DNA of 64,000 nt, taken from Halobaculum litoreum. GTDB lineage: Archaea > Halobacteriota > Halobacteria > Halobacteriales > Haloferacaceae. Below, piece by piece: positions 33,179-55,381 of this stretch. The position numbers and the translations under genes are program-made. The notes beneath the pieces were generated by a model that had not been told where the DNA came from, made no database searches, and saw only the letters and a list, made by a program, of their open reading frames with translations. The stretch covers positions 992,001-1,056,000 of the forward strand of contig NZ_CP126156.1 of NCBI RefSeq assembly GCF_030127125.1. Reading direction: 5' to 3'. Numbering within the stretch: the stretch's first letter is position 1; the number at the start of each line of letters is the position of its first letter.

Positions 33179-34888
33179 TCACCCCCAACTGCCGGGGAGC
33201 GTCCGCTCGTTCGCCAGGAGGAGTTCGATCGTCGCTTCGACCGTCGCGAACTCCCGGCCGCGCCGCACGGTCCCCGCGTCGGGGTCCCACTCGACGTAGC
33301 CGGCGTACGCGAGTTTCGGGAGGTGGACGTGTCGGAGCGCGAGCCGGTCGCGGTCGGTCGCGGTCGCCGCGACGTCGGCCGCCCGCACCTCCCCGTCGCC
33401 GCGCACCAGCCGTTCGAGCACGCGCCGCCGGACCGGGTGTGCGAGTTGCGTGAACAGTTCGTCCTGCCGATGGGTGTCGGTCGAACCGTTCTCGCCCGAC
33501 GACTGTGTGCCACCGATTCCCATACACGGTGGTACGCGGACGGACGTGATACGTGTTGACGCTATGCTTCTTAGCTCCTCGAAGAACCACCGCAGCAGCT
33601 TCGCCTCCGCCCGGCGGAGGTGTCGCAGCCACGTCGACGACGCGATCCCCATCGCCGTCGCCACGTCCTCGGCACTGCTCGCCCGCGGCCACTCGAAGTA
33701 GCCCCCGAGGTAGGCGGCGCGGAGCGTCTCCCGTTGCCGGTCGGTCAAGGCTCCCGTGAGCGAGTCGCGGTACTGTCGGGTGGTCCGGATCGGTCGATCG
33801 AGCGTCCGCTTCGCGACGATCGTCGCGTCCGGGTACGCCGCCCGGATCCGGTCGGTCAGCTCCTGCAGGTCGGCGTCGGCCCCGATCTCGGAGACGACGG
33901 TCGTCGTCGTCCCCGACGTCGTCATCGACCGAACGCTCGCGCCGGCCAGCGTCAACGTCCGCGCCGGGGAGCGGTCGGTGTCGAGCTCGACGAGCGCGGC
34001 CTCGTCGTCCGTCGTCACGACTCTGACCGCGGCAAGGTCCGGGAGATCGGCGGCGGCCGCGGCGACCGCGTCGCCGTCGGCGCCGACCACGGTCACGTAG
34101 TGGAGCAGCCGGTCGTCGGACGTCGGGACGACTCCCTCGAACTCGCACCGGTCGCCCACGGCCGCCGCGAGGTCGGACAGCACGGTCGCCTCGGGGATCC
34201 GGAACGTCACCTCGATGACCGCGTCGGCGGCCAACGACCGTTGATAGCGTTCGGCACGTCGCCGCTCGCGGCCCGCCTCCACCCGCGCCTCGTGGCGCTC
34301 CGTCACGTCCCGGAGGATCGCGAGGTGGCGCCCGGGGAGGACGTCCGGCGTCGCCGCGAACTCGACGGTTCGCCGCTCCCCGTCCGGACGCTGGAGCGGG
34401 AACAACCCCCGGTCGAGCCCGTCCGAACGGAAGTCGCCCCACGCGCTCTCCACGTCGTAGCCCGGGGCGGCGAAGTCGGTGATGCGCTCGCCCAGCACCG
34501 CCTCGTACGGGAGCCCCAACAGTTCACAGGCCGCCGGGTTGGCGTCGACGTAGCGGGCGTCGTCGTCGGCGATCAGGATCGCGTCGAACGCCGCCTCGAA
34601 GACGGCGCGGTACTGCCTCGCCTTGTCGAGGTCCGTGTCGTCGCCCTCCGACGGCCGATCGGTCCCGGCGCCCGCCGCCGGGAGCCACCACACTCGCCCT
34701 CGAGCACCGACCTTCTTGGTCCGGAGGTCGCCGTCGGCGGCCAACCGTCGGAGCCGCTTGTACGCCGTGGTCCGGGCGCACCCGACCGCCTCGGCGACCT
34801 CCGTCGACGTGAACGGCTCGCCCGGCGCACCCTCGAACACGCTCACCAGCCCGCCGCCGCGATACCGCCCGCTCCCCCCCTCCTTCAT
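33179..34888 (-). CDS. Bat-type PAS/HTH regulator, in-frame with a C-terminal DUF7344 winged helix
   Basis: The 569-residue reading has an N-terminal winged helix (FTSTEVAEAVGCARTTAYKRL, about 22-75), a PAS domain (about 96-215), a bacterioopsin-activator GAF/HTH module (about 230-440) with DRQRETLRAAYLGGYFEWPR and the HTH_10 end, and after WFFEELRSIAS a second winged helix of the DUF7344 type. The last 114 residues could be an independent gene (ATG 33523) with its own TATA-like box at 33547-33556. The junction is AT-richer and a stop (TAA) lies one frame away. It diverges from pilA and may control it. ATG 34888 is followed by a G7 run. Confidence 0.75.
   Translation of the reverse strand: MKEGGSGRYRGGGLVSVFEGAPGEPFTSTEVAEAVGCARTTAYKRLRRLAADGDLRTKKVGARGRVWWLPAAGAGTDRPSEGDDTDLDKARQYRAVFEAAFDAILIADDDARYVDANPAACELLGLPYEAVLGERITDFAAPGYDVESAWGDFRSDGLDRGLFPLQRPDGERRTVEFAATPDVLPGRHLAILRDVTERHEARVEAGRERRRAERYQRSLAADAVIEVTFRIPEATVLSDLAAAVGDRCEFEGVVPTSDDRLLHYVTVVGADGDAVAAAAADLPDLAAVRVVTTDDEAALVELDTDRSPARTLTLAGASVRSMTTSGTTTTVVSEIGADADLQELTDRIRAAYPDATIVAKRTLDRPIRTTRQYRDSLTGALTDRQRETLRAAYLGGYFEWPRASSAEDVATAMGIASSTWLRHLRRAEAKLLRWFFEELRSIASTRITSVRVPPCMGIGGTQSSGENGSTDTHRQDELFTQLAHPVRRRVLERLVRGDGEVRAADVAATATDRDRLALRHVHLPKLAYAGYVEWDPDAGTVRRGREFATVEATIELLLANERTLPGSWG
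33547..33556 (-). promoter_or_regulatory. possible internal promoter for a separate DUF7344 gene
   Basis: ACGTATCACG on the minus strand is centred 28 nt before ATG 33523, inside the longer regulator reading. It supports the idea that the DUF7344 part was a separate gene. Confidence 0.35.
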
Positions 34889-35006
34889 ACCGTGTCGGAC
34901 GCGAGCCGATTCGATATCGTTGACGGTACTCCGGACCCGGGGGCGTCCCGACCCGCACGATCGACGCTCGCTCCGGCGCGACCGACCCACAACACGACGG
35001 CTCGCT

Positions 35007-35128: not shown

Positions 35129-35530
35129 ATGGACTTCAACGCACTCTTCGACGACGACCGCGCCGTCAGCCCGGTGATCGGTGTGATCCTCATGGTCGCG
35201 ATCACAGTGATCCTCGCGGCGGTGATCGGCTCGTTCGTCCTCGGCCTCGGCAACAGCGTACAGCAGACGGCACCGAACGCGAACTTCCAGTTCGACTTTG
35301 ACAGTGGCACCGACACGGCTGTGGCAACGCACACTGGTGGTGACTCCATCCCGGCGAACCAACTGGAAGTAGTCGCAGGTAACACGACCACGACTTGGGG
35401 AAGTGACCCCGTAACTGCCGGTGTATCCTCCGGCGACGTCGACACGAGCGGTGCAGACACCGTCCGCGTGATCTGGTCGTCCGAGAACAACGAGACGTCT
35501 CAGACGCTCGCCGAGGAGAGCACCCCGTAA
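35129..35530 (+). CDS. pilA: type IV pilin (DUF1628 family)
   Basis: The 133-residue prepilin has a short N-terminal leader ([14 protein letters not shown]) followed by [20 protein letters not shown], the class III signal cut by prepilin peptidase PibD, and a beta-rich head of about 95 residues that starts [18 protein letters not shown]. Asn/Thr content is high, with sites for N-glycosylation (NTT, NET). It should be the major subunit of an adhesion pilus served by one of the nearby PilB/PilC sets. Start 35129 is chosen over 35033 because that ATG precedes the predicted transcript start. GC is lower than in neighbours. Confidence 0.93.
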
Positions 35531-35614
35531 CGCCGCGGACCGTTTCGCGCTTTTCGCAGACGCACTAGACCGATAGCCCTGCCTACACTTCACGACTGAT
35601 ACTCTGAAACGAAC

Positions 35615-35623
35615 GTTTATACC
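35615..35623 (+). promoter_or_regulatory. TATA box for the large pilin-like gene
   Basis: GTTTATACC is centred 28 nt before ATG 35646, giving the large pilin-like gene its own promoter separate from pilA. Confidence 0.6.
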
Positions 35624-35645: not shown

Positions 35646-37070
35646 ATGCCTTCAGGGGGGCCTCGCGGGCGTCGGGCGCAGGGCGACGTGATCGGGATCG
35701 TGTTGTTGCTGGCGATCACCGTCATCGGCGCCGGCACCGTCGTCGCGTTCGGCGGCGACGCCATCGACGGGATCCGCGAGTCGGCGACGACCGGCGCGGC
35801 CGAGCAGTCGATGACGCAGTTCGACTCCAAGGCCAGCCTCGTCGCCCACGGCGAGAGCGACACCCAGCGCGTTCGCCTCGCCGGGGCGGCCGACGGGGAA
35901 CGGGTCGTCGACGCCGACGCCGGGTGGATGAACCTCACGGTCAGGAACGCCACCACCGGCGCGGTCGAGGAGGAACTCGGCAACGTCACCCTCGGCGCGG
36001 TCGTCTACCGCGACGGCGACGCCAGCGTCGCCTACCAAGGTGGCGGGGTGTGGCGGCAGTCGGCCGACGGCAGCTCGATGGTGTCGCCGCCGGAGTTCCA
36101 CTACCGCGGGACGACGCTGACGCTCCCGCTCGTCCGGGTCGCCGGCGACCGCCGCCTCGACGAGGAGGTCGTCGTCCGACGGGCGAACGCGTCGACGGCG
36201 GTGTACCCCGACGCGAGCGCGGGGTACGCCAACCCCCTCGACGACGGGAAGGTCGTGATCACGGTCGGGAGCACGTACTACGAGGCGTGGGGTCGGTTCT
36301 TCGAGCAACGGACGAGCGGCGACGTCGTGGTCGACCACGGCAACGAGACCGCCACCGTCGAGCTGATCGTGCCGTTCGACACCGACTTCGACAACGCCGT
36401 CGCGTCGACCGCGCCCGGCGGCATCGACGCGAACCCCGGACCGCCGCCCAACCCCTACAACGTCGGCGTGTTCCAGCCGTCGGCCGACGACCTGATCGAG
36501 TCGCGCGTCGACGAGTGCGTGAACGACGCCGGCGCCTGCAACGAGTCGGCGCCGCCGGGGACGCTCGTGGGCGCCGAGTCGTACTTCGTGAACGGGAGCT
36601 ACGCCGGCGACCTCACGGTCGACACCGCCGGCGGGAACGTGAGCCTCGTCGTGGCCGAGGACTTCGAGCCCGACTCCGTCACCGTCTCCGGGGGCGGTGT
36701 GTTGACCGTGTACGTCCGGGGGGACGTCGCCGTCGACGGCGGCGACACCGTCAACAACGGCGGCGACGCCCAGGACGTCCGCGTCGTCGTTCACTCCGAC
36801 GGCTCCGTGAACTTCAACGGCAAGTACCGCTTCATCGGGTTTCTCTACGCGCCGGGCTCCGACGTCGACCTGAACGGGGGCGGCGGGAAGAACCACAAGA
36901 ACGTCGAGGGCGGCATCGTCGGCGAGACGATCGACATCAACGGGAAGCCCAACAAGTTCGAGTACGACCCCACGGTCGCGAGCATCGACCTCGACGTGAC
37001 CGCCAGCACGGCGCCGCGGATCACGTTCCTCCACGTGTCTGTCACCGAGGTCCGCGTCGAGGAGGACTGA
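35646..37070 (+). CDS. large pilin-like surface protein (DUF7289 start, DUF7305-like polymer-forming end)
   Basis: The 474-residue protein begins with a class III-type signal (GRRAQGDVIGIVLLLAITVIG), so its N-terminal helix could join a pilus. Residues 40-260 form a beta-rich region related to the DUF7289 protein at 37119 (AYYxAWGRFFE segment). After a Pro linker near 265, residues 315-440 are a repetitive beta region (VSGGGVLTVYVRGDVAVDGG; NFNGKYRFIGFLYAPGSDVD; GGIVGETIDING) like DUF7305 or other polymer-forming/beta-helix domains. A tip adhesin or minor pilin is inferred. Confidence 0.75.
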   Translation: MPSGGPRGRRAQGDVIGIVLLLAITVIGAGTVVAFGGDAIDGIRESATTGAAEQSMTQFDSKASLVAHGESDTQRVRLAGAADGERVVDADAGWMNLTVRNATTGAVEEELGNVTLGAVVYRDGDASVAYQGGGVWRQSADGSSMVSPPEFHYRGTTLTLPLVRVAGDRRLDEEVVVRRANASTAVYPDASAGYANPLDDGKVVITVGSTYYEAWGRFFEQRTSGDVVVDHGNETATVELIVPFDTDFDNAVASTAPGGIDANPGPPPNPYNVGVFQPSADDLIESRVDECVNDAGACNESAPPGTLVGAESYFVNGSYAGDLTVDTAGGNVSLVVAEDFEPDSVTVSGGGVLTVYVRGDVAVDGGDTVNNGGDAQDVRVVVHSDGSVNFNGKYRFIGFLYAPGSDVDLNGGGGKNHKNVEGGIVGETIDINGKPNKFEYDPTVASIDLDVTASTAPRITFLHVSVTEVRVEED

Positions 37071-37118: not shown

Positions 37119-37868
37119 TCACCGCTCCAGTTCGACGCCGACGGCGGTCTGTTGGACGACGACGCTCTCGACGTCCTCGATCCGGTAGGTGACGGTGCCG
37201 TCGGCGGGGTCGGCGTCGACCGGCTGCATGCCCTGTTCCTCGAAGTAGCGTCCCCAGGCGTCGGCCCACGGCGAGGTGACGGTCACGGTCACGTCGATGT
37301 CCGGGCCGTCCGCCGAGACCAACTCCGCGGCCACGCCGCGCCCGACGACGTCCGTCCGGAGGAGCACGGTGGAGCTCCCGCCGAGCGCGCTCCGGTCGGC
37401 CGTCCGGCCGGCGATCACGAGCGGGATCAGCGTGTGATCGTCGACCACCCAGCCCGGGCCGTCGCGCATCACCGCCCCGCCGGGGTCGTCCCTGACGACC
37501 GCGCCGTACGTCGAGGCGACGGTGGTCCCCTCGTGCGAGTAGGTGATCGGCGTGCTGGTCGCGTTCAGCGTCACGTTCGCCCCCGACCCGGCGTCGACCG
37601 CCTCGACGGTGATCGCGGTGGACCCGTTGACCGCGAGCACTCCCCCGTTCAGTTTGATCTCGGTCGCCCGGCTCGGCGCGCCCTCCCGGGCCATGTCGTC
37701 GACGTTGTCGTCGAGGACCTCGAACGCCCGCTCCATGTTCTCCAGCTGTTCGTCCGACCGGAGGTCCTGCAGGGCGGGGTAGCCCGCCGCGTACACCGTG
37801 CCGACCGTCAGGACGATGAGCGAGAACACGAGCACGAAGCCGATCGCGTCGCTCTGTGCGCGGGTCAC
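37119..37868 (-). CDS. DUF7289 family pilin-like protein
   Basis: The 249-residue protein starts TRAQSDAIGFVLVFSLIVLTVG, a pilin-like signal with a hydrophobic helix at about 9-28, then a coiled segment (LENMERAFEVLDDNVDDMAREG) and a beta-rich head with WADAWGRYFEEQG. The GTG start overlaps the previous stop as GTGA. It is the last gene of the pilus operon that starts at 45630. It probably acts as a minor pilin of that system. Confidence 0.8.
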   Translation of the reverse strand: MTRAQSDAIGFVLVFSLIVLTVGTVYAAGYPALQDLRSDEQLENMERAFEVLDDNVDDMAREGAPSRATEIKLNGGVLAVNGSTAITVEAVDAGSGANVTLNATSTPITYSHEGTTVASTYGAVVRDDPGGAVMRDGPGWVVDDHTLIPLVIAGRTADRSALGGSSTVLLRTDVVGRGVAAELVSADGPDIDVTVTVTSPWADAWGRYFEEQGMQPVDADPADGTVTYRIEDVESVVVQQTAVGVELER

Positions 37869-38347
37869 GCCGACCGCACCTCCAGATCCGCCCCGGTGTA
37901 CACGATCTCGAGGTCGCCGCCCGAGACGGACGCTGCGGCCACCGGCGTGGCGGTCGCCGCCGACACCGACACGCGCACGTCCACCGACGTGGTCGACAGC
38001 GCGATGGTGGCGGGGTCGCCCGGCACCACCTCGACGGTGTACGTCGTCCCCGCGATGGTGTCGGGGTACGACCCGCGGACGACGACCTCGTCCGCGCCGG
38101 CGGCGACGAGCCGGTCGGCCGCGACGAGCCGGCCCGCCAACTGCTGCCCGACGACCTCCAGGCCCTCGCGGGTCGTCGCCTCGCGCTGGCTGTCGACGGT
38201 CCCGCCGGCGGCGACGAGCAGCCCGCTGATCAACAGCGCGGTGATCCCGAGCGTCAGCACGTACGACAGCGCGGTCGACGTCGCCCGGTCGCGCGAGTGG
38301 GGAGCTGACCCGCCGGGCGCGCCGTCGCGCCGCTTGTGGTCAGTCAT
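37865..38347 (-). CDS. DUF7266-like pilin-related protein
   Basis: The 160-residue protein has a basic, disordered N-terminus, the pilin-like segment RATSTALSYVLTLGITALLISG and a beta head. Start ATG 38347 overlaps the upstream gene's stop by a few bases (ATGACTGA), so translation is coupled. The position in the operon (between DUF7289 and DUF7261 proteins) agrees with the haloarchaeal Tad-like pilus gene sets. Family number is from memory and tentative. Confidence 0.72.
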   Translation of the reverse strand: MTDHKRRDGAPGGSAPHSRDRATSTALSYVLTLGITALLISGLLVAAGGTVDSQREATTREGLEVVGQQLAGRLVAADRLVAAGADEVVVRGSYPDTIAGTTYTVEVVPGDPATIALSTTSVDVRVSVSAATATPVAAASVSGGDLEIVYTGADLEVRSA

Positions 38348-39339
38348 CGTGCTCACCCGGGGCGACCCGGACCGTGTCCGCGTACTCCAGTTCGGCCGTC
38401 TGGTAGCTGATCGGCACCTCCACCGCGTAGACGGCGGGGACGTAGTACGGCGACCCGTCGCCGGGGTCGCCGTTGAGGTTCACGAGCCCGAGCAGCCCGG
38501 TGCCGCCCTCGGCGGTGAGTTCGTACGTCCCGACGGCGTTCGTCCCGTTCCGGTACCGCAGGTCGTAGTCGCCGGCGGTCCCCGCCGCCCAGTCGAGCCC
38601 GGGACACGGGTCGCCCGCGAGCGTGCCGGCGGTGAGGTCGACCGTCGCCGTCGCGGCGTCGACCGCGCAGACCTCGACGGCGGCGCCCCGGGCTCCCGCA
38701 CGGCGACCGCGACCTCGTCGTTGTCCGCGGCCCGTCGGTAGACGTACGCGCGCCACTCGTCGGCGCCATCGTCGACGACGACGGTGAACGCGTCGCCGAG
38801 CGACCCCGGCGACGCGGGTTCCAGCGACGACCGGTCGACGGTCGCGGTGAACGCGCGCACCGACTCCGTGTCGCCAACGACCGTCCAGTCGTCCACGCCG
38901 TCGTCGGAGCGGAACGCCCGGCTCCCGTCGGTGTGGCGGACGAGCGTCCCCTCGACGTACGTCGCCGACCCCGTCTCGACCCGGGCGCCGGCGGCCAACC
39001 GGGCGGCCGACCCGCGCAGCAGGGCGTCGGCTCGACGACGCCGGCCGAGACGTTCGCCTCCAGCGCCGTCCACGAGCCGTACTCGGCGGCGTTCTCCCGT
39101 TCGACGACCCCGCCGACCCCGTCGACGACCGACGCGCGGTAGCCCAGCGCGTCGTGCTCGCCGACGCCGTCCTCGCGGGTCGCGAGGTTCTCGGTGAAGA
39201 TGGCCGTGTTCGCCAACAGCACCAGCGCGACCAACACGACCGCGAGGGCGAGTCCGGTCACGAGGACGAGTTGGCCGCGCTCGTCGCCGTCGCTCCCGCC
39301 CGGCCCGGCGTCGTCCCGGCGTCGCCTCAGATCCGCCAT
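38340..39339 (-). pseudogene. DUF7261-like pilin-related protein, doubly frameshifted
   Basis: Three frames give one protein of about 333 residues. It starts with an acidic N-terminus and the helix GQLVLVTGLALAVVLVALVL, continues to AGVVEP; adding one base near 39028-39030 gives EPDALLRGSAARLAAGARVE; adding one in the CCCC at 38686-38689 gives REPGGAAVEVCAVDAATATV and the end TVRVAPGEHDD. The repaired protein is one continuous pilin-like chain with a large beta head. It overlaps its neighbours by 13 and 8 bp, so the operon is otherwise intact, and sequence error is likely. Confidence 0.75.
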
Positions 39340-39923
39340 ACGACGATTCGCACCTCCATGACGCCGTACAGCGGGCCGTCGGGGTCGGCGTCCCCGACGT
39401 AGAACTCCCGGTCGGGCGCGGCCGCCACGTCGGCGAGCGTGCCCGCGCCGTCGCCGACGGGGTCGTCGTCGAACAGGACCACCGTCCGGCTCGCGGCGAC
39501 GGCGTTGTCGCTGGGCGAGCCCATGTACACGATCCGGGTGCGACCCTGCCCGCCGGCGGTCGTCCGGTAGCGCACCTCGACGTTGAACGCGACGCGTTCG
39601 TCCCCGAACGTCCGGTTCAACGTCGCTCCCAACCCGGTGTCGGTGAACGGCGACCGGGCGTTCTCGTACACGCCCCCCTCGCCGCTGTCGACGAACCGCT
39701 GTCCCGACGTGTTCCAGTACAGCAGCGCCGGCGCGAGCGTCCCGTTGGCCTCCGCGGCCGCGAGGGTCCCCTCCGCCACCGCCGCCTGCTGGTTCTCGAT
39801 GTGCTGGTTGGAGGTACTCGCCGTGAGCGGCGTCACCGCCGTCGCCTGCAGCGCGAACAGGACGCCGCTCAACAGGATGATCGCCGCCGCGAACCCCTCC
39901 AGCGTGTGTGCTTGTGCGCGCAT
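39327..39923 (-). CDS. DUF7288-like pilin-related protein
   Basis: The 198-residue protein begins MRAQAHTLEGFAAAIILLSG, the pattern of this small-pilin family with the hydrophobic helix at about 9-30, followed by a helical stretch (IENQQAAVAEGTLAAAEANG) and a beta head ending MEVRIVVWRI. Start and the previous stop share one base (TGATG). It is a probable minor pilin of the operon at 37.1-45.6 kb. Confidence 0.75.
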   Translation of the reverse strand: MRAQAHTLEGFAAAIILLSGVLFALQATAVTPLTASTSNQHIENQQAAVAEGTLAAAEANGTLAPALLYWNTSGQRFVDSGEGGVYENARSPFTDTGLGATLNRTFGDERVAFNVEVRYRTTAGGQGRTRIVYMGSPSDNAVAASRTVVLFDDDPVGDGAGTLADVAAAPDREFYVGDADPDGPLYGVMEVRIVVWRI

Positions 39924-40477
39924 CACCACACCCTCACGATCAGCGTCGCGTCGCGGCCGTCGAGCAGTACCGCCCGCCGCGACACCGACACGTCGGCGCC
40001 GCGGGGCGGCGCCTCCCCGGCCGCGAGCGTCGTCCCGTCGACGGTCGCGACGGCGTCGCCCGGGGTTTCGACGACCGTGACGTTCAGCGACCGGACGGTC
40101 GTGTCGACGCCCAGCGCGGCCGACAGGTCGCTCGCGTCGTCGTCGAAACGGCAGTCGGCGTCGGGCCCGACGGTGTCGAAGAAGTCCGCGGTACACGTGG
40201 CGTTCAACACCGACGGCCGCGTCGGAGCCGCGACGAGCAGGCCGTTCGCCAGCCGGTCGGCCGAGCGGTCCGCGACGACGGTCGCCTCGGTCGCGTCGTC
40301 GGTGAACGGCGCCGTCAGCGACGGGGCGAACGCGAACACGAACGCCACCACCAGCAGGAACACGCTGATGCCGACGGCGTAGTCGATGGTCGTCTGTCCG
40401 CGATCACGGCCCGCGTGCCCGCCCGCTCGCGCGGTCGGGACGCGCCCCCGTCGTTCGACCGGTCCCCCCGAGGGCAT
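39923..40477 (-). CDS. DUF7287-like pilin-related protein
   Basis: The 184-residue protein has a basic N-terminus of about 27 residues ending in DRGQTTIDYAVGISVFLLVVAFVFAF, a TadE/pilin-like signal with Thr-Ile-Asp before the helix, and a soluble region that contains two Cys (NATCTADFF; DADCRFDDD) likely to form a disulfide outside the cell. It shares one base with the PilC stop (TGATG). It is a probable pseudopilin. Confidence 0.75.
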   Translation of the reverse strand: MPSGGPVERRGRVPTARAGGHAGRDRGQTTIDYAVGISVFLLVVAFVFAFAPSLTAPFTDDATEATVVADRSADRLANGLLVAAPTRPSVLNATCTADFFDTVGPDADCRFDDDASDLSAALGVDTTVRSLNVTVVETPGDAVATVDGTTLAAGEAPPRGADVSVSRRAVLLDGRDATLIVRVW

Positions 40478-42519
40478 CAGGCGACCACCACCCAGACGCC
40501 GAGCGCGACCGACAACAGGATCACGACGAACTTCATCCCGCTCACGAGGTCGGCGCTGCGGATGTAGCCCGCGATGACCCCCGACAGCACCGCCTGGATC
40601 GTGACGGCGTGGAAGAACAGCACCGAGAGGCGGTCGACGTTGACGCCGCCGGCGAAGCCGCCGGAGCCGAGCCCGCCCCCGCCGCCCCCGCCGGTGCTCC
40701 CGGCCTGTGCCGTGAGGCCGGCGAGCACGTCGAGGAACCGGAGCTTCAGGATCGCCATCACCGCCAGCAGGGTGAGGTACGTCATCAGGATGATCGCGAC
40801 CTGCATCCGCGAGCGGGACTTGCGCTCGCGGTCGATGTCGTCCTGGTTCTCCGACGCCTGCGCCGCGGTGGTCAGGACGTCGGTGATCTGGCTGGACGCC
40901 TGCTGGGCCTCCGAGATGAGCTTCACCGTCCGCGCGAGCCGCGGGATGTGGTACTTGTTGTTGAACTCGACGAGCGCCTCGCGCAGGCTCATCCCGTAGT
41001 TCACCTTCGCGTACATCACGTCGAACTCCTCGGCGAGTTTCCCGCTGGAGGTGTCCGCGGTCGTCCGGATCGACTCCAGCAGGGTCTGCCCGGTGTCGTT
41101 GGCCGAGGAGAGCTTGCGGAGGTTGTCCGAGAGCTTGTTCGTGATCCCCGAGCGGCGGATCTGGTGCCACTCGTAGAAGAACACCAGCGGCACGAGCGTC
41201 ACGTACGCCGGCATGTACACCCACACGAACGTCGACCACACGGGGTTGTCGACGAACCCCTGGAACGACAGCGGCGCGTCGCCCGCGGCGACCGCGAACC
41301 CGAGCAACACCAGCGACGCCGGCACCGTCAACACCAGCGTGAACATGGGGTTGTCCCGGAAGAACACGTGGGGCGCCTTCAGTAGCTCCCGGGTGCGGAA
41401 GTTCCCCTCGCGCGAACGGATGCGGTCGAACACCGAGAGGTCGCCCGTGAACACCTCGACGAGACCGAGGTGGCGCAGCCCGCCGCGCTGCGCCTCGGCG
41501 AAGTGGTCGTCGACGCCGCCGGGGTCGAGGTAGCCGTCGCCCGGCTCGTCGCGCTTCACCGTCGAGACGAGCACGAGGAACCCCACGCCGATGAGCGGCG
41601 TGAGCAGGTACACCGTCGCCGTCAACAGGAAGTCCTGCCCCTGCCCGAGCATCGACATGATGACGAGGATGATGATGAGCAGCAGCGGGAACAGCGACAG
41701 CGTCATGTACATCTCGCCGAACAGCTCCAGCGTCTCCAGCGTCAGCTCCTGCTGCTGTTTGGCGGTCCGGAGGTGCTTCTCCTTCTTGTCGTAGAGGAAC
41801 CGCTCCATGTCCCCGCCGGAGTTGATGATCGACAGCATGTCCGTGAGGAACTGCGCGAGGTCCTCGCTGGGCGTCTCGATCGCCTGCTGGCGGACGGCGT
41901 TCCGGTAGTCCGTCCCGAAGTAGCTCGTCTCCTGGACGATGCTCTGGAACTCCTTGGCGACCTCGCCGTACGTGTCGTCGGCCTTCGCCATCGCCTCGAG
42001 GATCTCCAGTTGGTTGAGGCCGCCCACCGAGAGGGCGTACATGAACGAGACGGCGTCCGCGAGGAGCATGTTGATCTCCCGTTTCCGGGCGTCGGCACGC
42101 TGGTACGGGATCGCCAGCAGCGTCCCGAAGCCCAGCCCGAAGCCGATGCTGCCGAACACCACGCCGCCGGAGACGACCGCCGCGGGGACGGTCAGCGACT
42201 CCAACAGCGCGGCGGTCTCGGCGGAGTCGACCGGGATGCCCAGCCCCACCGACTCGGCGGTCACCAGCCCGAGCGCGAACACGCCCCACCCGAGGAGCAT
42301 CCCGACGACCCACAGCACCACGCCGACGAGGACGCCCACGCCCATCGCCCGCGAGACGTAGAGCTCGACGGGCTGGTTCATCCGCGCGGCGGTCAGCTTC
42401 TCGTCGACGCCGCCCACGAAGTCGCCGTCCTCGTCGAAGACGCGCTGGAACAGGGGGTAGAAGGCGTCGGCGAACCCCTGTGTGCTCCCGAACCCGCCCG
42501 CGTCGGTGTCGAGGCTCAT
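40477..42519 (-). CDS. pilC: type IV pilus platform membrane protein (PilC/TadC-like)
   Basis: The 680-residue integral membrane protein contains two T2SF/TadC halves, each with membrane helices around cytoplasmic loops: helix pairs lie near residues 58-80, 110-135, 258-300, 400-420 and 440-460, and near 590-680. The first cytoplasmic loop has SVGGLNQLEILEAMAKADD and the second TADTSSGKLAEEFDVMYAKV. It anchors the assembly ATPase and pulls prepilins from the membrane. It starts 1 bp after the ATPase stop. A second homologue lies at 51620. Confidence 0.9.
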   Translation of the reverse strand: MSLDTDAGGFGSTQGFADAFYPLFQRVFDEDGDFVGGVDEKLTAARMNQPVELYVSRAMGVGVLVGVVLWVVGMLLGWGVFALGLVTAESVGLGIPVDSAETAALLESLTVPAAVVSGGVVFGSIGFGLGFGTLLAIPYQRADARKREINMLLADAVSFMYALSVGGLNQLEILEAMAKADDTYGEVAKEFQSIVQETSYFGTDYRNAVRQQAIETPSEDLAQFLTDMLSIINSGGDMERFLYDKKEKHLRTAKQQQELTLETLELFGEMYMTLSLFPLLLIIILVIMSMLGQGQDFLLTATVYLLTPLIGVGFLVLVSTVKRDEPGDGYLDPGGVDDHFAEAQRGGLRHLGLVEVFTGDLSVFDRIRSREGNFRTRELLKAPHVFFRDNPMFTLVLTVPASLVLLGFAVAAGDAPLSFQGFVDNPVWSTFVWVYMPAYVTLVPLVFFYEWHQIRRSGITNKLSDNLRKLSSANDTGQTLLESIRTTADTSSGKLAEEFDVMYAKVNYGMSLREALVEFNNKYHIPRLARTVKLISEAQQASSQITDVLTTAAQASENQDDIDRERKSRSRMQVAIILMTYLTLLAVMAILKLRFLDVLAGLTAQAGSTGGGGGGGLGSGGFAGGVNVDRLSVLFFHAVTIQAVLSGVIAGYIRSADLVSGMKFVVILLSVALGVWVVVA

Positions 42520-45500
42520 CTACTCCTCCTCCGTGTCCTCCGGGGACTCCACCTCGCCGAACCCCCAGTCGTCGATGCCCTCGGCCTCGCCGTCGCCCTC
42601 GGCGGCGTCCGCGGCCGGCCTGTCCCCCTCCTCCTCGTCCGGCTCGGGGTCGTCGTCGTCCCCGAGGCCGCCCAAGTCGACGGGCGGCTCGTCGTCCGGT
42701 CCGTCGGGGGGGTCGCCCCCGGTCGGGGCCGCGTCCTCGTCGAACTGGTCGACCGCGTCGAACGCCGCCGTCGAGTCGGGGTCGGTGTCGCCGTCGGGTT
42801 CGTACTCCCCGGCGGTCAGTCCGCCGGCCGTGTCCCCGTCCGCCCGGTCGGGGTCGCCCAACCCGCCGACGTCGTCGAGGTCGTCGATGTCGAGCGGCTC
42901 CGGGCCGACGCCGTCGAACGGTTCGGCTTCGGGGTCGTCGTCCCCGGCCCGGTCGTCGGGGGCATCGGTGTCGGCCTCGTCGTCGGCGTCCGCGGCGAGT
43001 TCCTCGCCGGCGCCCGGTTCGGCGGCGACGTCGGCCGCGGGTTCGAGCGCGCCCAGCGCCGCGGCCACGCTGTCGGGGCGGTCGCCGCGGTACTGTTCGA
43101 GGATCGACTCCGCCTCCGCGAGGATCCGCGTCGCCTCCGCGGCCTGCGCGTCGGAGGGGTCCGGCCGCGGGACCATCTCCTCTTTGTCAGGGTCGACGTC
43201 GATGAGGACCGACTCCATCTCGCGGAGGTCGTCGAGGCTGGCCTCCAGCCGTTCGTTGGCCATCAGCGCGAGGATCGTCTCGGGGTCGTTGATGAACGCC
43301 TGCAGCGTCGCCGCCACCTGCGTGTACGTGTTGAGCCCGCGGTCGATGAGGTACGCGATGACCGCGCGGCGCTTCAACAGCTCCTCGTTGAGCGTCTCGA
43401 CCCCCCACCCGCGGTCGAACATGATCTCCTGGAGCGTGTTCGAGTCGCCCATGTGGAGGAACTCGTCCGTCTCCGCCTGCCACTGGTACACGTCCTGAAC
43501 GTTGATCTCGTCGTTCTCGGCGTCGTAGTGGTTGATCTCGGTGAGCGACTTGTTGCGGCGGACCTTGCTCCCCTGCACCCGCGTCTGGGTCTGGATGGAG
43601 ACGAGGTCGAGCGCCGTGAACATCGTCTTCGAGACGTTGATCGGCTCGGTCGTGAACCGCTTGAGCACCTCCCCGACGTTGTCCGCGTGGAACGTCGTGT
43701 ACGTGGTGTGGCCCGTAGACATGACCTGGAAGAGGGTGCGACCCTCCTCGCCGCGGATCTCGCCCATCACGATGTAGTCGGGGCGCTGCCGGAGCGCGGC
43801 CTCCAGCAGGTCGAACTCGTCGACGTCGCCGCCGTCGTCCTCGGCGAACGACGGGCGCGTCACGGAGGCGATCCAGTTGCGCTGCGGCAACTCGACCTCG
43901 CGGGTGTCCTCGATGGAGACGATCTTCGAGTTCGACGGGATGAACAGCGACACCGCGTTCAGGCTGGTCGTCTTCCCGGACGCCGTGCCGCCCGCGAAGA
44001 TCAGCGACTTGTGGTTCTCGATGCACAGCCACAGGAACGCCATCTCGTCGAGCGAGAACGTCTTCCAGTTGATGAGGTCGATCGGCGTGAACGGGACGTC
44101 CTTGAACTGGCGGATCGTGTAGTTCGTCCCGTGGTCGGACACCTCCTTGCCGAGGGTGAGCTGGGCACGCGAGCCGTCCGGGAGGGTGGCGTCCACCTGC
44201 GGCCGGCGCTTGGAGATGCCCTTCCCGGAGCGCTGGGCGAGCTTCACGACGAAGTCGTCCAGCTCCTGCTCGCCGTGGTAGACGTTGGAGATGATCTGCT
44301 CGTAGTCGGAGTGGTAGACGAACACCGGCGAGTTGTAGCCGTCGACGGAGATGTCCTCCACGTTGATGTCGTGTTTCACGCCGTCGATGCGCTCGTAGCC
44401 GACGAAGTCGCGTTCGAGGTAGTACAGCGCCTTCATCACCGTGTACTCGGTGAGTGTGTCGGGGTCCTCCGCGATCACCGCCGGCTCGGGGCGCGCCGCG
44501 ATCCCCTCGATCTCGCCGTCGGTGTCGCGCGGCGTCACGCCGAGCGCGCGGATCAGACGGCCGGCGGCGCCCTCGTCGTCGACCTCGACGCCGAACAGGT
44601 CCGCGAGCCGGTCGCCGAGGCCGGGCCCCTCCTCGCGCTCGTACAGGTCGTAGCGGTCGAGGAGGTCGTACGTCTCCTCGCGGATCGTCCGCCGGCGGTG
44701 GTCGTCGTCCGCGGCGACCTCCCCCTCGTCGGCGTACTTGATCGCCGAGCGGAGCTTCCCCTCGAGGAACTCCACCAGGTCCGTCTCGATCCGGTTCTGG
44801 TACGGTTCGACGACGTAGTACTTCTTCTCGTTCTCCTTCGTCGAGTGGAACACGATGACGAACGAGTACGGCTCGTTCACCCAGTAGCGCTCCACCTCGC
44901 GGAAGTGGCGCTTCTTCGGCATCGGCACCGCCTTCTCGAGGTCGTAGCGGTTCGCGACGGTCGTCACGCCGGTCGCGTCGCTGAAGAACGCGTCCTCGTC
45001 GACGTCGTCGGCGACGTCGACGGTGCGCTCGTCGACCACCTCGTCGAGTTCGGGCGCCCGCTTCGCGAGGTGGCCGAGCGTCTCCTCGACGCGATTGCAG
45101 TCGAAGCCGAGCGCCTCGCTTTTGTCCTCGTCGGTGAACTCGAGCGGCTCGCCCTCCTCGTCGACCGGCGGGTTCCCCTCCTCGTCGAGGAAGTACTCCT
45201 CGCGGTAGTCGTCCCAGGTGTAGATGTCCTTCCAGACGGGGGTCTCGTCGTACGCGAGGAGCGGGTGGCGGTCGGCGATGTCCTCGCCGAGCGCGCCGGC
45301 CCAGCCGAACGTCGCCGGCACCGCCACCGGCGCCATGTCGAGCGCGTCGGCGGCGACGTCCGTGACGCCGAGCGACTCCAAGTCCTCGGCGGTCGCGGCG
45401 CGCACCTCGACACGGACGACCTCTTCGCCGTCTTCGTCCTCCTCGACGACCTCCGTCCGGAGGAGTTCGGCGAGTTCGTCGGCCGCCTCCTCGTGTCCGT

Positions 45501-45630
45501 GCTCGCGCAGGAAGTCGGGCCACGTGTACTCCCCGACGACGACCGCATCCCCCGCCTCCGCGTCCGCCTCCCGCCCGGGCGCCTCCTCGTACCCGGCGGT
45601 GGACGGCACGTCAGCGTCGTCGGTAGCCAT
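42520..45630 (-). CDS. pilB: type IV pilus assembly ATPase (PilB/TadA-like) with long acidic tail
   Basis: The 1036-residue ATPase powers pilus assembly. A long N-terminal domain (about 1-400) is specific to haloarchaeal PilB. The core holds FAGGTASGKTTSLNAV (Walker A, near residue 545), the Asp-box RGEEGRTLFQVMSTGHTT with Walker B IVMGEIR, and the His box TFHADN. The last 210 or so residues are strikingly acidic and low in complexity (DDEADTDAPDDRAGDDDPEA). The ATG is preceded by a TTTAA box at 29 nt, so the operon is likely leaderless and begins here. Confidence 0.93.
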   Translation of the reverse strand: MATDDADVPSTAGYEEAPGREADAEAGDAVVVGEYTWPDFLREHGHEEAADELAELLRTEVVEEDEDGEEVVRVEVRAATAEDLESLGVTDVAADALDMAPVAVPATFGWAGALGEDIADRHPLLAYDETPVWKDIYTWDDYREEYFLDEEGNPPVDEEGEPLEFTDEDKSEALGFDCNRVEETLGHLAKRAPELDEVVDERTVDVADDVDEDAFFSDATGVTTVANRYDLEKAVPMPKKRHFREVERYWVNEPYSFVIVFHSTKENEKKYYVVEPYQNRIETDLVEFLEGKLRSAIKYADEGEVAADDDHRRRTIREETYDLLDRYDLYEREEGPGLGDRLADLFGVEVDDEGAAGRLIRALGVTPRDTDGEIEGIAARPEPAVIAEDPDTLTEYTVMKALYYLERDFVGYERIDGVKHDINVEDISVDGYNSPVFVYHSDYEQIISNVYHGEQELDDFVVKLAQRSGKGISKRRPQVDATLPDGSRAQLTLGKEVSDHGTNYTIRQFKDVPFTPIDLINWKTFSLDEMAFLWLCIENHKSLIFAGGTASGKTTSLNAVSLFIPSNSKIVSIEDTREVELPQRNWIASVTRPSFAEDDGGDVDEFDLLEAALRQRPDYIVMGEIRGEEGRTLFQVMSTGHTTYTTFHADNVGEVLKRFTTEPINVSKTMFTALDLVSIQTQTRVQGSKVRRNKSLTEINHYDAENDEINVQDVYQWQAETDEFLHMGDSNTLQEIMFDRGWGVETLNEELLKRRAVIAYLIDRGLNTYTQVAATLQAFINDPETILALMANERLEASLDDLREMESVLIDVDPDKEEMVPRPDPSDAQAAEATRILAEAESILEQYRGDRPDSVAAALGALEPAADVAAEPGAGEELAADADDEADTDAPDDRAGDDDPEAEPFDGVGPEPLDIDDLDDVGGLGDPDRADGDTAGGLTAGEYEPDGDTDPDSTAAFDAVDQFDEDAAPTGGDPPDGPDDEPPVDLGGLGDDDDPEPDEEEGDRPAADAAEGDGEAEGIDDWGFGEVESPEDTEEE

Positions 45631-50900: not shown

Positions 50901-51623
50901 TCACTCGGGCGCGACGACGGCGTAACAGTTGCCGCTGGAGACGGTCGACTCCACGACCCGGAGGTCGCTGGCGGCCAAATCGGCGTCGAACTCCGCGGGG
51001 GCGTAGATGTGGTAGAAGCGCGGGACCGTCTCCCCGCCGGGGAGCGTCCAGTCGACCTCGGCGTCGAAGCCCGCCTCGGCGTCCGCGGCCGCCTCGAAGC
51101 GGTCGTGGGCGGTGCTCCACGCGCTCACCAGCGCGCGACCGCCGGGCGCGAGGACGCGCGCCACCTCCGACAGCGACGCGACGCGCCGCTCCCGCGGTCG
51201 CAGGTGGTGGAGCGCCGCGACGTACACCGCCACGTCCGCCCGCCCGTCGCCGACCGGGAGTGCCCCGGCGTCGCCGCGGACGAACGAGACGGTCCCGTCG
51301 TACCCGCGCTCGCTCGCCCGCGTCCGCGCCTCCCGGAGTAAGCCGGCGCTCACGTCGACGCCGACCGCCTCGTCGACGCGTTCGCGCAGGGGCTCGCAGT
51401 GGCGACCGTTGCCGCAGCCGACGTCGAGGCCGACCGCGCCCTCGCGCCCGTCGAGGAACGACGTCACCTCGGGCCACGCGTACTCGCGCGTCTGCGAGAA
51501 GTGCGCCGCGATGCGGTCGTACGTAGCCGCCGTCGCGCCCACCCCGTCGCCGCCGACGCGGTCGGCGCCGCCGTCGGACCGCGAGCGCTCCCCCCCGCCG
51601 CCGGCGTGTTCGCCGGGGCTCAT
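50901..51623 (-). CDS. class I SAM-dependent methyltransferase coupled to a pilus operon
   Basis: The 240-residue protein has motif I VGLDVGCGNGRHCEPL, motif II EAVGVDVSAGLLREA and motif IV ADVAVYVAALHHLRPRERR, an order typical of Trm9/UbiE-like methyltransferases. The ATG overlaps the PilC-like stop at 51620 by 4 bp (ATGA), so it is translated with the pilus platform gene. This suggests methylation of a pilin, lipid or tRNA linked to pili; the Trm9-like form favours tRNA wobble modification. Only the fold is certain. Confidence 0.83.
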   Translation of the reverse strand: MSPGEHAGGGGERSRSDGGADRVGGDGVGATAATYDRIAAHFSQTREYAWPEVTSFLDGREGAVGLDVGCGNGRHCEPLRERVDEAVGVDVSAGLLREARTRASERGYDGTVSFVRGDAGALPVGDGRADVAVYVAALHHLRPRERRVASLSEVARVLAPGGRALVSAWSTAHDRFEAAADAEAGFDAEVDWTLPGGETVPRFYHIYAPAEFDADLAASDLRVVESTVSSGNCYAVVAPE

Positions 51624-53719
51624 CCGATCACCAGGAAGGTGGCGTACGCGAGCAGGAGCATGACGGCGGCGTGTTTCACGCCGTCGCTCACCTTCCCTTC
51701 GCCGAGCTGTCCGGCGACGAGTCCCGAGGCGACCCCTTGGATCGCGGCGGCGTGGTAGAACAGCACGACGTACGTGTCGACGTTCACGCTCCCGAGGCCG
51801 TCGAGCGCGCCCGCGGAGACGCCGTTGGGGACGCCGGGGGCGCCGCCCGGACCGGCGAGCTGTGCGCCCTCGACGGCGGGGATGAACGCGACGGTCAGCG
51901 CGGCGATGATCCCCAGAAACACGAAAAACGAGATGTAGATGACGAGCAAGTACGTCACCATGACCTGTCGCCGCTCGCGGCGCAGCCGACGGGTCGCGCG
52001 CGCCTCGTCGGCCGCGATCTCCAGGACCGGCGCGACCTCGCCGCTGGCGTCGATGGCGTTCGTCACCAGCGCTACCGCGCGCGCGACCATCGGCGACCGG
52101 ACGCGGTCGCGCATCCGGCCCAGCGCGGTCGACACGTCCGCCCCCCACTGGATGTCCCGCCACGTGCGGTCGATCTCCGGCGACAGGCGGTCGAGGTCCG
52201 AGCGGGTCAGCCGGCGGACGCTCTCGACGACCGTGAGGCCGGCGTCGTTGATGCTCGCCATCCGGTCGAGGAAGTCCGGCACCGCCCGCTCGACGGCGCG
52301 GGTCCGCCGTTTGTCGATCTCGTAGGCGGCGCCGTAGGCGACCAGCACGACCAGCGTCGCCTCGATCACCGCCGAGTCCGCCGCCCGGGCGACGGCGATG
52401 GGGGTCAGCGCCGCCGGTTCGGTTCGGACCGCGACCCACACCAGCCCCAGCGGCACCGTGACCAGCGCCGTGAGCGCGGGGCGTTCGAGCAACACCTCGC
52501 CGGGCCGCCGCAGCGAGTCGAGCAGGTCGCCGACCCGGTCGTAGGCGGCGAGCCGTTCCCGGTCGGCGCCCCAGCGGTCGCCGAACGTGCCGCCGTCCGA
52601 GCGCACCGCCGCGCCGCCCCCGCCCGGCACCCCGAGGACGCGGGGGTCCGTCGTCGCCTCGTCGGCCCGCGTCGGGTCGCCCGCCGAGCGGGTGATCGAG
52701 TCGATGTAGACGACGAAACCGAACGTCGCCAGCGGGACGCCGAGGTAGACGACGACGCGCAGGAGCGGCAGCGTGTCGCTGAGGACGATGCCGATGACGA
52801 CGAGGATGGTGATGAAGAACAGCGGCCCCGCGACCAGCACCGTGACGTACGCCTCCGCGAACGTCGACACGAGTTCGAGGTACTGCTCCTGTTGGGACTC
52901 CGCCTCCTCCTGATAGCGCTCGTACTGGTCGTGGAGGAACCCCGAGAGGCTGCGCCCGCTGGCGAGGACCGACGCGAGGTTCTCCGCGAACTCGCCCATC
53001 GTCTCGGAGGGCGTCCGCGCGGACGTCCGCTCGAGGGCGGTCAGCACGTCGGTGCCGAACGTGTTCATGTCGCGGACGGCCACACCCAGTTCCCGGGCCG
53101 CCTCGCCGTACACCTCCTCGTTGCGCGCGAGCGTGTTCAACACGATGGGGAACGACATCCCCGACCGCGACAGCGCGTACACGAACGCCACGGTCCGCGG
53201 CAGCGTCGCCTCGATCCGGCCCGCCCGGGCGGTGGCGCGCTGGTCGAGCACCTGCCACCGCAGGGCGTACACGGCCAGCGCCGACCCCGGCCCGACGGTC
53301 GTCGCCGACACCAACAACAGCGGGAACAGCTCCACGACGCCGAGGTCGCCGACCCGGGTGAGGTCCGCGAGGAAGCCGAGCGTCGGCGGCACCGCCGCAC
53401 GGACGGCGTCGCCGCCGATCCGCAACAGCGCCAACACCGCCGCCGCGACGTACACCCCGATCACGCTCCCCGCGACCCCGGCGACGCCGGCGTACAACAG
53501 GGTCGTCGCGGCGTACGCGCGGTGGGTGGTGTCGACGTGGGCCGCCCGCAGGCGGTCGCGTTGGCCGCCCCGCCGCGGGCTGCGGTCCGCGACGTAGGTC
53601 CCGAACAGGTGGACCGCGACCCGGGTCGTCGCCAGCGACGCCCGCGTGCTCACCGGGGCCGCCGCGACGGGGGCCACGAGCGCGAGCGCGAACACGAGCG
53701 GGACGTACGACAGCACCAT
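51620..53719 (-). CDS. pilC: second type IV pilus platform protein (PilC/TadC-like)
   Basis: The 699-residue protein has the two-half TadC layout: N-terminal helices (about 1-30, 88-115 and 140-170), VAFVYALSRSGMSFPIVLNTL and a second half with ASINDAGLTVVESVRRLTRSD, and ends in a group of helices. It shows the same architecture as the protein at 40477 but is clearly diverged. It follows the ATPase at 53723 by 3 bp and overlaps the methyltransferase. No pilin gene follows in this set. Confidence 0.88.
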   Translation of the reverse strand: MVLSYVPLVFALALVAPVAAAPVSTRASLATTRVAVHLFGTYVADRSPRRGGQRDRLRAAHVDTTHRAYAATTLLYAGVAGVAGSVIGVYVAAAVLALLRIGGDAVRAAVPPTLGFLADLTRVGDLGVVELFPLLLVSATTVGPGSALAVYALRWQVLDQRATARAGRIEATLPRTVAFVYALSRSGMSFPIVLNTLARNEEVYGEAARELGVAVRDMNTFGTDVLTALERTSARTPSETMGEFAENLASVLASGRSLSGFLHDQYERYQEEAESQQEQYLELVSTFAEAYVTVLVAGPLFFITILVVIGIVLSDTLPLLRVVVYLGVPLATFGFVVYIDSITRSAGDPTRADEATTDPRVLGVPGGGGAAVRSDGGTFGDRWGADRERLAAYDRVGDLLDSLRRPGEVLLERPALTALVTVPLGLVWVAVRTEPAALTPIAVARAADSAVIEATLVVLVAYGAAYEIDKRRTRAVERAVPDFLDRMASINDAGLTVVESVRRLTRSDLDRLSPEIDRTWRDIQWGADVSTALGRMRDRVRSPMVARAVALVTNAIDASGEVAPVLEIAADEARATRRLRRERRQVMVTYLLVIYISFFVFLGIIAALTVAFIPAVEGAQLAGPGGAPGVPNGVSAGALDGLGSVNVDTYVVLFYHAAAIQGVASGLVAGQLGEGKVSDGVKHAAVMLLLAYATFLVIG

Positions 53720-53722
53720 CGC

Positions 53723-55381
53723 TCAGCCACCGTCCGCGGTGGGGTCGGTCGCGACGCGCCGGTCCTCGTCGCCGGCGTCCCGCAGCCGCGTCATCGTTCG
53801 CTCGGGGTCGGCGTAGTACTGGTTCACCAGCGCCGTGAACCGGCGGTAGTCGGTGACCCCCTGCTCGCGCAGCTGTTCGAGGAACGACCGACGGCGGCGC
53901 ATCTCCGAGAGCAGCTCGGCGCGGCTCCACCCGCGCTCCTCCTGGATCTCCTCGAGCAGCGAGGAGTCGTTGCGTCGGAAGGTGTCCGTGTCGGCCTGCC
54001 ACGAGAACACCGACGAGTAGTCGAGTTCGCCGGTGCGCTGGTCGACCCCGCCGATCTCGCCGACGGTCTTGGCGCGGCGGACGCGTTCGCCCTCGAAGCG
54101 GGTGAGCGTCTGGATCGACAGCATGTCGAGCGAGCGCACCATCGCCCGCGGGACGTTGATCGGCTCGTTCTCGAGGCGGTTGATCACCGTCTCGATGGAG
54201 TCGGCGTGCATCGTGGAGAAGGTGGTGTGGCCGGTGTTCATCGCCTGGAACAGCGTGAGCGCCTCCTCGCCGCGCACCTCGCCGACGACGATGTACTCCG
54301 GGCGGTGGCGCAGCGCCGAGCGCAGCAGGTCGTACATGTCGATGTCCTCCCCCTCGCCCATCCGCTCGCGGGTGACCGACGACAGCCAGTTGTCGTGGTA
54401 CAGCGACAGCTCGCGGGTGTCCTCGATGGTGAGCACCTTCGAGCGCGGCGGCACGAACATCGACACCGCGTTCATCGAGGTGGTCTTCCCGGAGGCGGTG
54501 CCGCCGGCGAAGATGAGGCTCTTGTTGTGCTCGATGCAGATCCAGAAGTACGCCATCTGTTCGATCGAGAAGGTGCCGTACTCGATCAGGTCGATCGGCG
54601 TGAGCGGCTCCTCGGCGTACTGTCGGATCGTGAACGCCGAGCCCCGGGGCGTCACCTCCTCGCCGAGCGCCAACTCGGCGCGCGACCCGTCCGGCAGCGT
54701 CGTCTCGACGATGGGGTCGCCGACGGAGATGTGGCGGCCGGACTGCTGGGCCAGCCGGATCACGTAGTTGTCGAGCTCCTCCGCCTGGAAGACGACGTTC
54801 GTCTCGACGTCGGTGTACTCGTCGTGGTAGACGAACAGCGGCAGGTCGTAGCCGTCACAGGAGATGTCCTCGATGTGGCGGTCCGAGAGCAGCGCGTCGA
54901 CCTTGCCGAACCCGCGAAAGTCGCGCCGGAGGTAGTACAACAGCGTGTGGAACGTCCGCATCCCGGCGTCGACGCCGTACTGTTCGAGGAGCTGGCGGAG
55001 CTCCCGTCTGAGCGTGTCCTCGTCCGCGCGCTCCACCTCGCCGCGGAACAACAGCGGGTCGCGGATGTCGTCGACCACCCGGCGCAACAGCGACGCCTCG
55101 AACTCGTCCAACTCCGGCTCGACGACGTGGTACAGGTGGTTGTCGTCGACGGTGTCGTAGGTGACGACGACGTACGCGTACGGCGCGTTCACCCAGTAGC
55201 GGTCGACCTCGTCGTGGTGCTCCGGCGGGTCGAACGACGCCAGCGGGCCGTCCTCGCCCGGCCGGAACGGGCGGACGGCGAGGTCGCTGCCGCGGAGGAC
55301 CTCGAGCGTGCGCGAGAGCCGTCGCCGGAGCGCCGACAGTCGGTCCTCGTCGCCGCCCGCTCCCGCGGTGTCCCCCGACAT
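53723..55381 (-). CDS. pilB: second type IV pilus assembly ATPase (PilB/TadA-like)
   Basis: The 552-residue ATPase lacks the long N-terminal and acidic C-terminal regions of the homologue at 42520. Walker A is GGTASGKTTSMNAV (near residue 293), Walker B IVVGEVRGEEALTLFQAMN, then GHTTFSTMHADS. The N-terminal RYWVNAPYAYVVVTYDT domain shared with the first copy is present. A TATA-like GTAAGTACC (about 55408-55416) lies about 30 nt before the ATG. It leads a three-gene operon with PilC and the methyltransferase. Confidence 0.92.
   Translation of the reverse strand: MSGDTAGAGGDEDRLSALRRRLSRTLEVLRGSDLAVRPFRPGEDGPLASFDPPEHHDEVDRYWVNAPYAYVVVTYDTVDDNHLYHVVEPELDEFEASLLRRVVDDIRDPLLFRGEVERADEDTLRRELRQLLEQYGVDAGMRTFHTLLYYLRRDFRGFGKVDALLSDRHIEDISCDGYDLPLFVYHDEYTDVETNVVFQAEELDNYVIRLAQQSGRHISVGDPIVETTLPDGSRAELALGEEVTPRGSAFTIRQYAEEPLTPIDLIEYGTFSIEQMAYFWICIEHNKSLIFAGGTASGKTTSMNAVSMFVPPRSKVLTIEDTRELSLYHDNWLSSVTRERMGEGEDIDMYDLLRSALRHRPEYIVVGEVRGEEALTLFQAMNTGHTTFSTMHADSIETVINRLENEPINVPRAMVRSLDMLSIQTLTRFEGERVRRAKTVGEIGGVDQRTGELDYSSVFSWQADTDTFRRNDSSLLEEIQEERGWSRAELLSEMRRRRSFLEQLREQGVTDYRRFTALVNQYYADPERTMTRLRDAGDEDRRVATDPTADGG

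Follow-up and report, generated by a model that had tools for sequence, protein, structure and literature searches.

The window analyzed here, 64,000 nucleotides of Halobaculum litoreum (NZ_CP126156.1, positions 992,001 to 1,056,000), holds an intact open reading frame at 35646-37070 on the forward strand, and its product of 474 amino acids (aa) is read here, at a probability of roughly 0.6, as a modular minor type IV pilin with an exchangeable ligand-binding head that is probably located at the pilus tip. The protein joins a pilin scaffold (DUF7289) to a separate inserted domain (DUF7305, hereafter the cargo), a modular-pilin architecture that is well supported by alignments with its relatives.

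Results

Pfam assigns residues 10-238 of the protein to DUF7289 (1.1e-28; 100.8 bits versus a cut-off of 27) and residues 274-445 to DUF7305 (6.1e-30). The N-terminus, MPSGGPRGRRA/QGDVIG, reads as a class III-like signal, with RRA/QGDVIG at residues 9-17, and in an AlphaFold2 model that had 45 homologues as input (mean predicted local distance difference test score 89.9, predicted template modeling score 0.75) it is followed by a long alpha1 helix of 54 residues (residues 14-67), in agreement with the class III pilin signal noted in a preliminary description of this stretch. A regular expression for such signals matched 50 of 84 proteins and was not used as evidence; signals were missed because some start codons had been chosen inside the helix. 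Downstream of the helix the model has beta structure all along. The preliminary description had recognized a 120-residue beta-repeat region and proposed a structure prediction for residues 315-440; the C-terminal region is indeed beta-rich in the model, but its extent is that of the whole DUF7305 domain, about residues 243-455. The cargo has a capping helix at residues 281-293 and a conserved cysteine pair (291/298), and is strongly acidic, with a net charge of -24 over 214 residues.

Alignment with a cargo-free DUF7289 paralogue (P0002) places the whole cargo as a single insertion ahead of the last strand, and a C-terminal strand of the type ITYLHVSxNxVxV ends nearly all relatives, whatever the cargo. 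When the last 19 residues were added to the scaffold in 84 proteins and scored with a hidden Markov model of the cargo-free paralogues, the mean gain was 3.5 bits (minimum 1.1), versus 0.93 bits for random 19-mers of cargo used as a control (set means of 0.75-1.07 over 40 draws); the gain per protein is small yet consistent. Because the C-terminal scaffold strand returns after the cargo, the cargo is an insertion and not a C-terminal tail, and these alignments place it after the penultimate strand of the DUF7289 scaffold and before the last one.

The cargo of the 84 close relatives belongs to two unrelated groups, DUF7305 (38 short and 26 long versions) and DUF7308 (20), and distant DUF7289 proteins carry in the same slot either a von Willebrand factor A (vWA) domain with an intact DxSxS metal ion-dependent adhesion site (MIDAS) motif or arrays of CARDB domains. 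Four of the vWA versions are convergent with an operon of the order PilB-PilC-DUF7287-7288-...-7289, and one CARDB version lies within a cluster of this type. On a tree of the scaffold, 10 changes are needed to account for the cargo labels A, B, and C (C being DUF7308), with types A and B needing 9 changes each, at least 5 of them forced by the starred branches. Two Halobaculum genomes, G006 with a short cargo (locus L007) and G008 with a long one (L008), share 83% protein identity in the scaffold and 89% in the tail versus 32% in the cargo, and their identity breaks off at TATVELVVP and restarts at PRITYLHVSVTEIEV. The long-cargo protein and that of H. saliterrae (L036) have 69% protein identity in the scaffold and 70% in the cargo. 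These comparisons of cargo use protein identity, and a DNA figure of 76%, obtained by aligning the GC-rich sequences with gaps tolerated, was discarded as uninformative. As judged from these identities, the cargo is cleanly replaced within Halobaculum between two flanking scaffold parts.

This pattern bears on the possibility of a structural role, in which the protein would act with the DUF7287/7288/7261/7266/7289 set to prime assembly or cap the filament and the insert would be a spacer or cap and not a ligand binder. Such a role would be in keeping with the position of the gene among small pilin-like genes, as in the HIJK priming complex, and with the prediction that arCOG02911 (250-550 aa, duplication-prone) is a minor pilin of PilB3 and PilB4 systems (PMC4858521). 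Nevertheless, neither wholesale exchange among species with the scaffold kept nor replacement by vWA/MIDAS or CARDB modules is expected of a pure structural cap, and this explanation is considered unlikely, with the note that structural and ligand-binding roles are compatible and not mutually exclusive.

Two further observations concern the wider range of scaffolds and heads. Four pilin-type proteins of 1262-1874 aa (L115, L116, L124, and L131) have CARDB arrays and a terminal strand like VDxDxIxIG; all but one of them match DUF7289, and they are possibly giant adhesive pilins of haloarchaea. DUF7305 matches also occur in neighboring runs, with three listed for each of G246:C1:487377-491745 and G126:C22:76524-85566, which suggests local amplification of heads.

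The gene had been described as an orphan, and this does not hold, as homologues are present in 34 of 40 relatives and the gene forms a conserved convergent pair. A scan of species genomes returned 284 places, and 78 loci from named haloarchaea were taken for analysis; at 63 of these the gene converges on the member of a pilus operon that consists of DUF7289 alone. Both placements noted at the outset, beside a pilin and opposite a pilB/pilC assembly operon, are confirmed in the window; across the 78 loci the PilA neighbor is confined to Halobaculum and the pilus operon is present almost everywhere. More broadly, 90 of 97 class-level genomes have the DUF7289 scaffold, and in a set of 242 genomes DUF7305 occurs in 161 and DUF7308 in 60. 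A DUF7308 match is present in Haloferax volcanii, and the Haloferax counterpart consists of DUF7289 plus DUF7308. Architecture, operon linkage, head diversity, and head exchange can all be read from the sequences compared here.

Operon linkage also makes it improbable that the protein is a membrane-anchored surface protein with a pilin-type signal that never enters a filament. Polymerization is not proven by pilin-type signals, some scaffold copies (e.g., L038, L043, and L064) have no pilus operon linked to them within the DNA examined, and very large scaffold proteins exist, all of which would suit a free surface protein; against this are the convergent arrangement at four-fifths of the loci (63/78) and the occurrence of vWA versions in the same place. 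Elsewhere in the H. litoreum genome, one more pilus locus (L135, C1:1836000-1850000) encodes a long ATPase and pilin-like proteins; its DUF7289 match is broken by a TGA, and no cargo-bearing pilin was found there.

The cargo is predicted to fold as a beta-solenoid. In Foldseek searches of solved structures, ice-binding (DUF3494) beta-helices top the list with weak matches (E 0.017-0.07), and other weak matches include a bactofilin (6ria, E 0.97) and ComZ. In a library of viral structures the first match is DUF3494 (E 0.0034, probability 0.95); a viral origin of the cargo was considered and set aside, as this library yields just DUF3494-type matches, from giant viruses. For the DUF7308 cargo, weak fold matches are spread over laminin-G, galectin, GH16, and PilC of Streptococcus sanguinis, and the identification of this cargo as a lectin was not adopted on matches so weak and scattered, though it is retained as a lead. 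A sequence search for relatives of solved structure found none beyond pilin helices. The bacterial N-methylation/pilin N-terminal family (IPR012902 type) is absent from the Pfam and NCBIfam matches of the 474-aa protein, and the PilY1 C-terminal beta-propeller has no Pfam match in it.

The C-terminal region had also been called polymer-forming, and a polymerization like that of bactofilin is scarcely credible. The distant structural match to 6ria and the bactofilin-like extra solenoid segments of some relatives (L125, 32.4 bits versus a cut-off of 27.9) would be its support, but the bactofilin family (PF04519) has no match in the 474-aa protein at E <= 1, DUF7305 is a separate family, and by topology the domain lies outside the cell.

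Converging on the modular pilin is a minus-strand operon of PilB, PilC, DUF7287, DUF7288, DUF7261, DUF7266, and the cargo-free DUF7289 (Table 1). The T2SSE core of the ATPase is at residues 472-692, and N- and C-terminal extensions have been reported for PilB4/HVO_1160 (PMC4858521). The operon fits the PilB4 type, a long ATPase with its own pilin set, where "PilB4-like" is a match by description. PilB4 has been detected in H. volcanii in GMM medium only (PMC7305310), and in H. gibbonsii pilB4-C4 is expressed and is lowered on virus infection (PMC12542753). Upstream of the modular pilin, a box resembling a transcription factor B recognition element (BRE) and TATA element (CGAAC..TTAT) is at a fixed distance from the ATG in each of the 11 upstream regions from Halobaculum. 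Because this box is conserved, the promoter of its own previously attributed to the gene is plausible. Scans for sigma-70 promoters and terminators gave nothing, and such scans are not meaningful for archaea.

Table 1. Features of the modular pilin gene and the adjoining pilus operon, with positions in the window
Feature	Positions	Strand	Evidence
PilA-family pilin, candidate major pilin	35129..35530	+	Pfam Pilin_N 2.8e-26
Putative archaeal promoter: BRE-like CGAACG and TATA-like TTTATA, ~25 nucleotides before the ATG, leaderless-type spacing	35610..35621	+	Conservation
Modular pilin, part 1: signal, alpha1 helix, and beta scaffold (DUF7289) up to residue 242	35646..36371	+	Pfam, AlphaFold2
Modular pilin, part 2: inserted DUF7305 cargo, residues 243-455, predicted beta-solenoid	36372..37010	+	Pfam, AlphaFold2, weak Foldseek matches, cysteine pair, cargo exchange
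Modular pilin, part 3: last strand of the scaffold, APRITFLHVSVTEVRVEED, with the stop codon	37011..37070	+	Paralogue alignment, hidden Markov model gain, retained whatever the cargo type
Convergent DUF7289 paralogue without cargo (P0002), candidate partner	37119..37868	-	Pfam 4e-50 over the full model
DUF7266 pilin-like protein	37865..38356	-	Pfam 8.5e-27
DUF7261 pilin-like gene, appears frameshifted in the assembly	38353..39339	-	Pfam 8.8e-05, N-terminal part only; continues in other frames
DUF7288 protein, start placed by the domain match	39327..39929	-	Pfam 6.3e-65
DUF7287 pilin-like protein	40196..40474	-	Pfam 3.9e-26
PilC/TadC-type membrane anchor	40477..42519	-	Pfam T2SSF 8.2e-25
PilB-type ATPase of 1036 aa, PilB4-like, extended at both the N- and C-terminus	42520..45630	-	Pfam T2SSE 7.6e-31

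Several features of the surrounding DNA should be noted. The DUF7261 gene is spread over three frames (38353-39339, 38480-39073, and 38340-38756, all on the minus strand) in a genome whose completeness is given as 85.9%, and the frame changes suggest frameshifts through assembly error or decay. A second PilB/PilC pair, at 51620-55381 on the minus strand and separated by only ~6 kb from the upstream end of the PilB4-like operon, is PilB3-like (Pfam PilB3_N 9e-25 and PilB3_C 1.8e-26) and is a possible assembly system for the PilA pilin. At 33179-34990 on the minus strand, divergent from the PilA gene, the frame of a PAS-BAT-HTH_10 regulator continues uninterrupted into a DUF7344 domain; this open reading frame either is a candidate regulator of the pilus or represents two genes joined by an indel.

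Discussion

As a modular pilin, the protein would be processed at the class III signal of its DUF7289 scaffold in the manner of a prepilin and built into the pilus by the neighboring PilB4-like machine, and the inserted DUF7305 beta-solenoid would project from the filament, with the tip as its most plausible place. The tip position is probable because the shaft would have no room for a bulky head, an argument that has been made for ComZ and PilB. There the head would bind a ligand, be it a surface, a glycan, a protein, or another cell, and recombination would swap the cargo with both flanking scaffold parts retained. The cargo-free paralogue P0002 may partner the modular pilin, as PilA2 does ComZ. 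Processing, pilus assembly, tip position, ligand binding, and adhesion are thus steps that we infer. The adhesin layout suggested by the preliminary description is supported as far as a bulky pilin with a binding head, through the insertion, the operon linkage, and, most of all, the vWA, CARDB, or weakly lectin-like cargo that relatives hold in the same slot. Bacterial modular pilins whose tip location is proven or proposed are laid out in this way (PMC8179133, PMC9934059, PMC6561018).

A more speculative extension is that the PilB4-type locus could serve as a specificity-switching device, with a fixed scaffold whose last loop would be a socket for recombined, unrelated heads (beta-solenoid, DUF7308, vWA, or CARDB arrays). 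Should this tentative suggestion be correct, strains would change what their pili stick to, driven perhaps by surfaces, partner cells, or viruses.

A number of points weigh against the interpretation as a modular tip pilin. The literature search turned up no experiment on the modular pilin or a relative, and the evidence does not tie its assembly to a particular pilin set or ATPase. The generic pilin-signal models score just under their cut-offs (Pilin_N 20.3 versus 25.2 bits; arch_flag_Nterm 17.9 versus 20). The solved-structure matches of the cargo are weak (best E 0.017, TM-score < 0.35), and the solenoid label therefore draws on family resemblance and on the secondary structure in the AlphaFold2 model; the case for a lectin-like DUF7308 is weaker again. 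Finally, the strand insertion is drawn from sequence and not from coordinates. In the literature searched, DUF7289 and DUF7305 are named in no paper, and a search for "tip adhesin" with Haloferax pilins found none.

The recognition of surfaces and partners by archaeal pili is poorly known, and haloarchaeal studies focus on the major PilA pilins. The modular pilins provide a concrete candidate for the recognizing part, with homologues in most of the haloarchaea examined, including a DUF7308 match in the genetically tractable Haloferax volcanii, and with head exchange visible inside one genus. The head can be deleted or exchanged while everything else in the pilus is left as it is, so that experiment can address the question directly.

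Among known archaeal proteins, the nearest description is that of arCOG02911, an Ig-like minor pilin of variable length in the type IV pili of euryarchaeal clade 2 (Makarova et al. 2016, PMC4858521). It is FlaFind-positive, beta-rich, of 250-550 aa, duplication-prone, and part of PilB3/PilB4-type systems, and, matched by description alone, is very probably the same family as the modular pilin; the paper makes no mention of an inserted cargo, of its kinds or exchange, or of strand re-entry. In Pfam the H. litoreum protein (P0001) is DUF7289 plus DUF7305, and no function is stated for these families or for DUF7308. The "homeocassettes" of Halorubrum ezzemoulense, mutually exclusive alternative islands of which one pair encodes a type IV pilus system (PMC11078007), set an earlier example of alternative islands at pilus loci, but they are whole islands, whereas the cargo of the modular pilin is a sub-gene cassette between two strands.

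A close architectural parallel is ComZ of Thermus thermophilus (PDB 6QVI), a DNA-binding pilin that has a beta-solenoid between the penultimate and last strand and an adjacent partner pilin, PilA2 (PMC6561018); the closest structure to that solenoid is the ice-binding protein FfIBP (PMC6561018). The two share the insertion point and an adjacent partner pilin (P0002, by analogy), and the weak best matches of the Halobaculum cargo are likewise of the ice-binding type, but ComZ is bacterial and DNA-binding, and the Halobaculum cargo is shorter and acidic. ComZ was not found in a profile search of PDB sequences with the modular pilin family. A ComZ-like tip pilin acting as a receptor for DNA uptake would account for the shared insertion point and class of closest structures, but it would do so without a sequence relation to ComZ, with an acidic cargo that does not favor DNA binding (though haloarchaeal surfaces are acidic anyway), and with vWA or CARDB filling the slot in other species, so that this function is very improbable.

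For the modular pilin as a ligand-binding protein, the relevant comparison is with Streptococcus sanguinis, where PilB (vWA) and PilC (ConA-like lectin) are adhesive and have been modeled at the tip (PMC8179133, PMC9934059). Both systems carry modules on a pilin, and a vWA domain with MIDAS is common to PilB and the DUF7289 relatives; the differences lie in the bacterial N-terminal family and in adhesion, which is proven for PilB/PilC and proposed for the haloarchaeal pilin. Bacterial modular pilins as a whole bear vWA, lectin, and beta-solenoid modules (PMC8179133, PMC9934059, PMC6561018). With an insertion point like that of ComZ and a vWA/MIDAS module like that of S. sanguinis PilB, archaea appear to use the bacterial strategy of grafting a module on a pilin, and by this analogy the proteins described here look like a family of modular pilins in archaea whose heads can be exchanged, a counterpart of bacterial pilus-tip adhesins.
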